NCBI GenBank assembly: GCA_003193925.1
Contig: PSPG01000008.1
Coordinates: 73,848 to 137,847, forward strand
Length of the DNA: 64,000 nucleotides
Direction: 5' to 3'
Source: Candidatus Thalassarchaeum betae
Lineage (GTDB): Archaea; Thermoplasmatota; Poseidoniia; Poseidoniales; Thalassarchaeaceae
Below are positions 18,541-20,142 of this stretch, piece after piece. The position numbers and the translations under genes were made by a program. Each line of letters opens with the position of its first letter. The first letter of the stretch is position 1. The notes beneath the pieces were generated by a model that had not been told where the DNA came from, made no database searches, and was given only the letters and a program-made list of their open reading frames with translations.

Positions 18541-20142
18541 TCAGTCGTGTGGCCCGACCATGTCCCCGGCCCTGACCCACTGAGTGAATTGCTCGTCGCT
18601 CAGAAGACCCAGTTCGAGTGCGCTCTCGCGCAGCGTGGTCCCCTTGGCATGGGCGTTCTTCGCAATCTTCGCGGCGTTGTCGTAGCCAATGTGCGGGTTG
18701 AGCGCGGTGACCAGCATCAGCGAGTTCTCCAAGTGCGCGGCGATCCTGTCCTCATTGGCTTCCAGACCTACCACGCACTTGTCGGTGAACGAGCGGCAGG
18801 TGTCTGAGAGCAGGCGGACGCTGTGCAGGAAGTTGTGGATCATCATCGGCTTGTACACATTGAGCTCAAAATTGCCCTGACTGCCTCCGACCGAGATGGC
18901 GGTGTGGTTGCCCATCACCTGGCAGCACACCATCGTCATCGCCTCGGCCTGCGTTGGGTTGACCTTGCCCGGCATGATGCTCGAGCCCGGCTCGTTGGCC
19001 GGTAGTGAGAGTTCCCCGAAGCCGCAGCGTGGCCCCGAGCCGAGCCACCTGACGTCGTTCGCGATCTTCATCAGCGAGGTCGCTAGGGTGTTCAGCGCCC
19101 CTGAGGCGGCCACCAGCGCATCGTGGGCGGCGAGCTGCGCGAACTTGTTCTCGGCGCTGACGAAAGCCAGTCCGGTCTTCTCGGCGATGTGGCCCGCGGC
19201 CGTGTCTGCGAACTCAGGGTGGGTGTTGAGGCCGGTGCCGACCGCGGTTCCCCCGAGCGCCAACTCGAGCAGGTCCCCCATAGCGCTCTCGATGCGGCTG
19301 ATGTTGGCATCGAGCATTGAGACATAGCCACTGAACTCTTGCCCCAAGGTGAGTGGGACGGCGTCCATGAGGTGGGTCCTGCCGATCTTGACGATGCTCC
19401 TGAAGTCCCTCGCCTTGCTTGCCAGAGCGCTGCGCAAATGGCGTACTGCGGGCAATAATCGATGGCTGACCTCCTCTGCGGCAGCGATGTGCATGGCGGT
19501 CGGGAAGGTGTCGTTGCTTGACTGGGCGCGGTTGACGTGGTCGTTCGGGTGTACCGGGGTCTTGCTGCCTACGGAGCCGCCTGAGATCTCGATCGCACGG
19601 TTGGCGATGACCTCGTTGGCGTTCATGTTGGTCTGGGTCCCCGAGCCCGTCTGCCAGACCCTGAGCGGGAAGTGCTGGTCCAAGGAGCCCGAGATGACCT
19701 CGTCGCAGGCTGAGGAGATCAGCGAGCCGATGTTGGAATCCATCTGGCCCAGTTCGACATTGGTCTTGGCCGCAGCCTGCTTGAGAACCCCAAAGGCGCG
19801 TATCACCGAACGCGGCATCGTGTCCTCGCCGATGTCGAAATTGAGCAGTGATCGTGCCGTCTGGGCCCCGTAGTACCTGTCTGCAGGGACCTCGACCTCC
19901 CCCATCGTGTCCTTTTCGACCCTGATTGCGTCTGGTTGGGCCCTCGCGCTGCGAGCTGCGGCCCTAGGCTCCTCAGAACGCTCATCCGCCTCCGAATCGA
20001 GGGATTCCTGTATCATTCTCGAGATGGTTGCAGAGCGTCCCTTCTCGCGTCCCTTGCCGACTCTCCTGTCGAGCCTCTTAGCGAGGTCCTCTGGTATGCT
20101 TATACTGACTATCCTGCGGTCTCCGGCACGGTGTTTGGCCAT
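18541..20142 (-). CDS. fumC: class II fumarase with N-terminal ribbon-helix-helix domain
   Basis: Residues 1-50 are a ribbon-helix-helix DNA-binding domain ([20 protein letters not shown] strand-helix, then a second helix with [14 protein letters not shown]). After a ~20-residue acidic/Ala-Arg linker, full-length class II fumarase begins (about residue 72, [20 protein letters not shown]) with [39 protein letters not shown] and [11 protein letters not shown]. Fumarase interconverts fumarate and malate in the TCA cycle. No ATG, GTG or TTG occurs in frame between about residue 44 and Met80, so fumarase alone has no good start. A TATA box 28 bases before the first ATG fits a leaderless message starting at the RHH domain. 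The fusion is unusual; total length 533 versus about 460 for ordinary FumC. Confidence 0.9.

Follow-up and report, generated by a model that had tools for sequence, protein, structure and literature searches.

A ribbon-helix-helix domain fused to a class II fumarase, and a candidate operator at its promoter, in Marine Group II archaea

Ribbon-helix-helix (RHH) domains fold only as dimers, two of which are present in the tetrameric regulator NikR; class II fumarases also form tetramers. Among the closest known cases is trifunctional PutA, a metabolic enzyme that carries an RHH domain and represses its own gene (PMC5293562); the E. coli protein has one intergenic binding site (PMC8249747). In the RHH family the strand reads the major groove while the N-terminus of helix 2 holds the DNA backbone (PMC3325190). 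The locus described here joins such a domain to a fumarase. It lies in a window (the whole stretch of DNA that was analysed, 64,000 nucleotides) that belongs to Marine Group II (Poseidoniales), its closest named relative being Candidatus Thalassarchaeum betae (94% protein identity), in a host genome of 1.48 Mb and 92% completeness. Marine Group II archaea are abundant in the surface ocean and uncultivated, and little is known of their gene regulation; the open-access literature yielded no paper joining ribbon-helix-helix with fumarase, or Poseidoniales with fumarase. The gene is made up as follows, in window coordinates:

18541..20142, minus strand: RHH-fumarase fusion gene, an uninterrupted ORF of 533 codons plus stop with an ATG start, with Pfam and NCBIfam matches, conserved in 76 distinct homologues
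19993..20142, minus strand: RHH domain, residues 1-50, recognised by Pfam RHH_1, weak NikR/MazE-type PDB profile matches and its entropy pattern
19927..19992, minus strand: variable linker, residues 51-72, pN/pS ratio 0.40, entropy 2.95 bits vs 0.62 for the enzyme
18544..19926, minus strand: class II fumarase, residues 73-533, fumC_II 777 bits, E. coli FumC alignment from about residue 72

The first-pass annotation had read an RHH module, a linker and a fumarase in a single frame, and this is confirmed by the 533-codon ORF, by the profile matches and by conservation across homologues; the linker, about 20 residues long, joins the RHH domain to a complete class II fumarase. Above the fusion ATG the frame stays open for seven codons only, with no ATG, GTG or TTG among them. 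Between Met43 and Met80 the window fusion has no in-frame start codon, in agreement with the earlier claim that none occurs from about residue 44 to Met80, and from residue 49 to the fumarase motif Met such codons are absent in 47/76 distinct homologues and lie at scattered, unconserved linker positions in the remaining 29/76. A stop or frameshift between the two domains, which the annotation had named as counting against a fusion, was searched for, and no split gene was found among the homologues examined. One standalone RHH candidate, a 47-aa frame in genome G016, was rejected as the overlapping end of two contigs.

The C-terminal part is, by its profile matches, an ordinary class II fumarase. 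Residues 74-530 match TIGR00979 fumC_II above its cut-off of 665 bits, Pfam places Lyase_1 at 81-411 and FumaraseC_C at 477-529, and the aspartase equivalog model aspA scores below its cut-off against the fusion protein. T256-H257, S387-S388, K393 and N395 (the TH pair, the SS loop and GSSxMPxKxN) are invariant in 40 sequences, and we take their catalytic roles to be those of E. coli FumC. Solved class II fumarases, E. coli FumC among them, align from about residue 72, and residues 1-55 are uncovered by any solved class II fumarase found. It is this N-terminal region that matches Pfam RHH_1, on residues 12-48, with 23.9 bits for the N-terminus alone and 21.3 bits for the whole protein, above the curated cut-off of 20.5 for the RHH superfamily (RHH_1/CopG) profile. 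A PDB search with the RHH profile returned NikR and a MazE-type antitoxin at weak E-values (0.07 to 0.46), and structure prediction of modest confidence (pLDDT 63.5 for the RHH monomer) gives a strand at 9-11 (9-13 in the full-length model) and helices at 18-31 and 36-53. Foldseek with a 70-residue model found nothing significant, two RHH antitoxins being among its weak matches.

With mean pN divided by mean pS over 48 close pairs at 0.056 for the RHH domain, 0.046 for the fumarase and 0.40 for the linker, purifying selection on the RHH domain nearly equals that on the enzyme, and the linker drifts. Within the domain, the strand positions predicted to face the DNA (11, 13 and 15) have a mean entropy of 0.19 bits and the inward ones (12, 14 and 16) of 0.93 bits, the facing having been inferred from our own alignment with known RHH proteins; the helix-2 cap GRS at 35-37 has 0.03 bits. 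The most conserved part of the RHH domain is its predicted DNA-contact face, which fits DNA binding. An intact enzyme and a predicted DNA-binding domain share one chain, as is expected of a trigger enzyme.

What is new here is a candidate operator at the fumarase promoter, which came to light by comparing fumarase upstream regions:

20156..20174, minus strand: candidate operator TTTATTAATAACnAATTAA = TTTATTAATAACCAATTAA, 19 bp, at -32 to -14 from the ATG

A TATA-like box, TTTATTAATA, makes up the first ten bases of the element (20165-20174). It spans -32 to -23 relative to the ATG, the place expected of the TATA box in a leaderless archaeal promoter, in agreement with the earlier placing of a TATA box for a leaderless start at the RHH ATG. 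Two palindromic subsites can be made out in the element, TTATTAATAA and TAATTA, and the distance of about 9 bp between their centres would suit two RHH dimers. In a search of its own 1.48-Mb genome with up to 3 mismatches, the element occurs once at two or fewer, at the fumarase promoter, and three mismatches add a single chance-like match. Sixty genomes of the family hold 34 matches, 29 of them just upstream of a fumarase ATG (27 distinct promoters), and the 5 found elsewhere are fewer than the 16 obtained with a reversed control pattern. Identity to the element of at least 13/19 is seen in 82/102 fumarase promoters vs 0/403 upstream regions of other ORFs; an AT-rich 45-mer background was set aside, as some of its 45-mers overlapped the fumarase promoter itself. 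This uniqueness, in the genome and against the ORF upstream background, rejects the notion that the element is general TATA context. Information runs from 1.1 to 2.0 bits per column across the element, column 11 excepted, values that are somewhat inflated because loci were chosen at 14/19 or better, and the 22 columns preceding it are mostly below 0.6 bits, with a maximum of 1.0. One locus (L031) has the element tandemly duplicated upstream of the fumarase ATG, and three (L061, L071 and L072) have a second, TTATTTAATAATTAATTATTA-like copy further upstream.

The presence of the element follows the presence and type of the domain. Where the RHH is of the Arg5 type, the element is found at 14/19 or better in 61/69 distinct promoters, the other eight loci keeping the RHH with a degenerate element. 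Where it is of the Asn5 type the element is found in 0/13 loci, whose promoters bear TTTAATAAC instead, in many of them followed by an inverted copy. Loci that have no RHH have no element either (0/12, or 11 distinct loci, L089 and L208 being apparently the same contig), and within 400 nt no match to it exceeds 13/19. The co-occurrence of domain and element gives a Fisher p of 7e-7 with phylogeny ignored, which overstates the case because only a handful of independent events lie behind the losses and the operator change. Other features were seen in these upstream regions. In the Asn5-type loci (L075-L087) a Shine-Dalgarno-like stretch, GGAGGTTTATCAGTTC, is conserved well ahead of the fumarase gene, about 75 nt before its ATG, and some RHH-less Poseidoniaceae loci have conserved hairpin-like leaders within about 100 nt before the ATG, beginning TTCTCTCGTAGAGAGAAGCAAGCCCTAATGG in L092, L093 and L098 and CCGTACGAACGGTGAAGAAGTACC in L094, L097, L185 and L187. 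Rfam gave no matches on RHH-less fumarase loci; with these leaders, regulation at the RNA level may have taken the place of that by the RHH. A third form of RHH-like N-terminus, diverged and reading MSSKGRPKTHDARIVSVSFPSEI, is found on a Poseidoniaceae fumarase in L207 (genome G057, 440-1993, minus strand), whose promoter contains TTTATTAATAATGAATAAT.

A search for the RHH-FumC architecture in archaeal genomes, which the first-pass annotation had proposed, recovered the fusion in most Thalassarchaeaceae and in part of the Poseidoniaceae. At the level of the genus, 9/9 full-length matches align from residue 1, and in a GTDB-wide scan 72 among the best 80 loci do so. A comparison of 193 genomes from the order shows the fused form to be dominant in one family (f1, Thalassarchaeaceae) and present in several genera of a second (f2, Poseidoniaceae), other fumarases of which begin at about residue 72; the names of these families, and that of f3 below, are our reading of named records and kinship codes. 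Among the Thermoplasmatota fumarases found beyond the class, not one aligns to the RHH. RHH-less genomes contain no close homologue of the fused RHH elsewhere in the genome, and unrelated RHH proteins are present in 11/11 genomes checked. In a quick tree with several weak forks, the RHH-less fumarases nest at three or more points within the fused clade, and since they do, the RHH was probably ancestral in the order and was then lost repeatedly, together with the element. Synteny can be followed by one further gene:

20233..20715, minus strand: cyclophilin-type peptidyl-prolyl isomerase gene, Pfam Pro_isomerase 161 bits, directly upstream of the fusion; a synteny marker, outside the mechanism

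This gene lies upstream on the same strand in 95/105 loci (L001-L121 minus the RHH-less ones listed), and it also precedes three RHH-less fumarases, at a distance of 87 to 235 bp. Beside the locus, window positions 17400-18460 are purine-rich and of low complexity. Both strands carry long ORFs that overlap there, and a perfect 69-bp tandem repeat occupies 18197-18329; an ORF at 17970-18575 has no Pfam match. At 20624-22853 on the plus strand, two neighbouring proteins match Zn_ribbon_TFIIB, the second below the cut-off.

Directly established are the fusion, the selection acting on the contact face of the RHH, the uniqueness of the element and its co-occurrence with the RHH, and we hold with good confidence that they are best explained by an autoregulating trigger enzyme, a fumarase tetramer whose RHH domains would bind and repress the fumarase promoter. 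As the likely binding sequence lies only before its own gene, the enzyme very probably governs how much of itself is made. The tetramer would carry four RHH modules on flexible linkers, that is, two RHH dimers, which could occupy the two palindromic subsites of the element. Because the element covers the TATA-like box, the bound fusion protein should block TBP/TFB at this leaderless promoter, and fumarase transcription would be repressed. In the simplest logic, fumarase synthesis would be limited by the concentration of the enzyme, whether or not substrate modulates the effect. DNA binding, its stoichiometry, repression and the absence of other targets are what we infer from comparison of the sequences. 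One point against is that other RHH proteins in these genomes could in principle bind the element. The earlier suggestion of an enzyme that binds DNA, perhaps at its own promoter, gains good comparative support from contact-face selection, a unique promoter element and the joint absence of element and domain.

The same annotation had also offered control of TCA genes; in such a wider role the RHH domain would bind DNA and the enzyme would regulate several genes of the TCA cycle or carbon metabolism. RHH proteins often control several promoters, and sites degenerate beyond 3 mismatches would fall outside the element search; however, the genome of the window has one site at two or fewer mismatches, with the only other match chance-like, and in the family the matches away from fumarase do not even reach the number found with the control pattern. 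With the element confined essentially to the fumarase gene, control across the TCA cycle is unsupported, and we regard such a regulator as unlikely. We give equally little weight to the element being an unusually conserved core promoter, with an RHH that acts elsewhere or serves oligomerisation or DNA anchoring. The TATA-like box is indeed part of the element, and the eight RHH-bearing loci with degenerate elements retain little beyond it, but conservation runs past the box through all 19 bp, other promoters do not resemble the element, it is missing where the RHH is missing, and within the RHH domain conservation peaks on the predicted DNA-contact face. Fumarases have known DNA-damage roles in other organisms, and a DNA-binding fumarase acting in DNA repair, or in fumarate signalling at damaged DNA, might be imagined on that ground; a repair factor would, however, not be served by a single conserved site in each genome, lying at its own promoter. 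The link to repair that had been proposed finds no support here, and we consider this reading highly improbable.

Self-regulation of fumarase may extend beyond Marine Group II. A further family of the same class (f3; L190-L194 and L209-L226), by our own assignment probably Marine Group III, has fumarases with a conserved N-terminal extension of about 100 residues in 18/21 genomes. Exactly one copy of a 34-bp pseudo-palindrome, TGTATGCAnnATGCATAnnnATGCAnnATGCATA, based on TGCATA, is likewise found in 18/21 genomes, with zero control matches, and wherever the gene could be placed the fumarase start follows this copy by about 30 bp. The likeness to the RHH-fumarase is that of an N-terminal extension combined with a single pseudo-palindrome just ahead of the gene; the Marine Group III palindrome differs from the Marine Group II element in having another sequence and in lying upstream of a TATA-like box. 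As an RHH domain, the extension is unsupported by Pfam, PHROGs, hhalign and a PDB profile search, the resemblance being by eye only (YTSIRVTKEV...). It is possibly a second, independent self-regulating fumarase, and if the extension does bind DNA, the design would have arisen twice or diverged beyond recognition. A broader picture is offered tentatively, as a possibility more than an expectation. Across an archaeal class, an enzyme of the TCA cycle might serve as its own dedicated single-site transcription factor, with Marine Group III using the same design through a different N-terminal DNA-binding domain and operator, several Marine Group II lineages having lost domain and operator together, and occupancy perhaps being tuned by fumarate or malate.

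For uncultivated organisms of this kind, the locus supplies a protein, a likely operator and a mechanism open to test in vitro, for which a 90-bp fragment and a single purified protein would suffice. RHH-operator co-evolution could be studied along a natural series, made up of the lineages that repeatedly lost domain and operator and of the change of operator that goes with RHH residue 5.

The protein can be compared with several known systems. It is like FumC in that residues 74-530 match fumC_II and solved FumC structures, and unlike it in having about 70 extra N-terminal residues, the RHH included. NikR proteins are the best PDB profile matches of the RHH domain (weak E-value of 0.07), but the C-terminal part of NikR is a metal-sensing domain, which the RHH-fumarase does not have. 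A further parallel is type C proline utilization A (PutA), which also carries an N-terminal RHH on a metabolic enzyme and whose self-repression the fusion would share. The differences are that fumarase takes the place of PRODH/P5CDH, that the promoter is archaeal with a TATA-like box, that no C-terminal switching domain or membrane switch is known for the RHH-fumarase, and that no second target gene comparable to putP was found for it. The RHH-fumarase would work like PutA yet is no PutA, because the PRODH and P5CDH domains are absent from the fusion, in which Pfam finds Lyase_1, FumaraseC_C and RHH_1 only. If self-control holds true, a central-carbon enzyme, and an archaeal case, would join the short list of enzymes that control themselves, among them PutA and others in E. 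coli.
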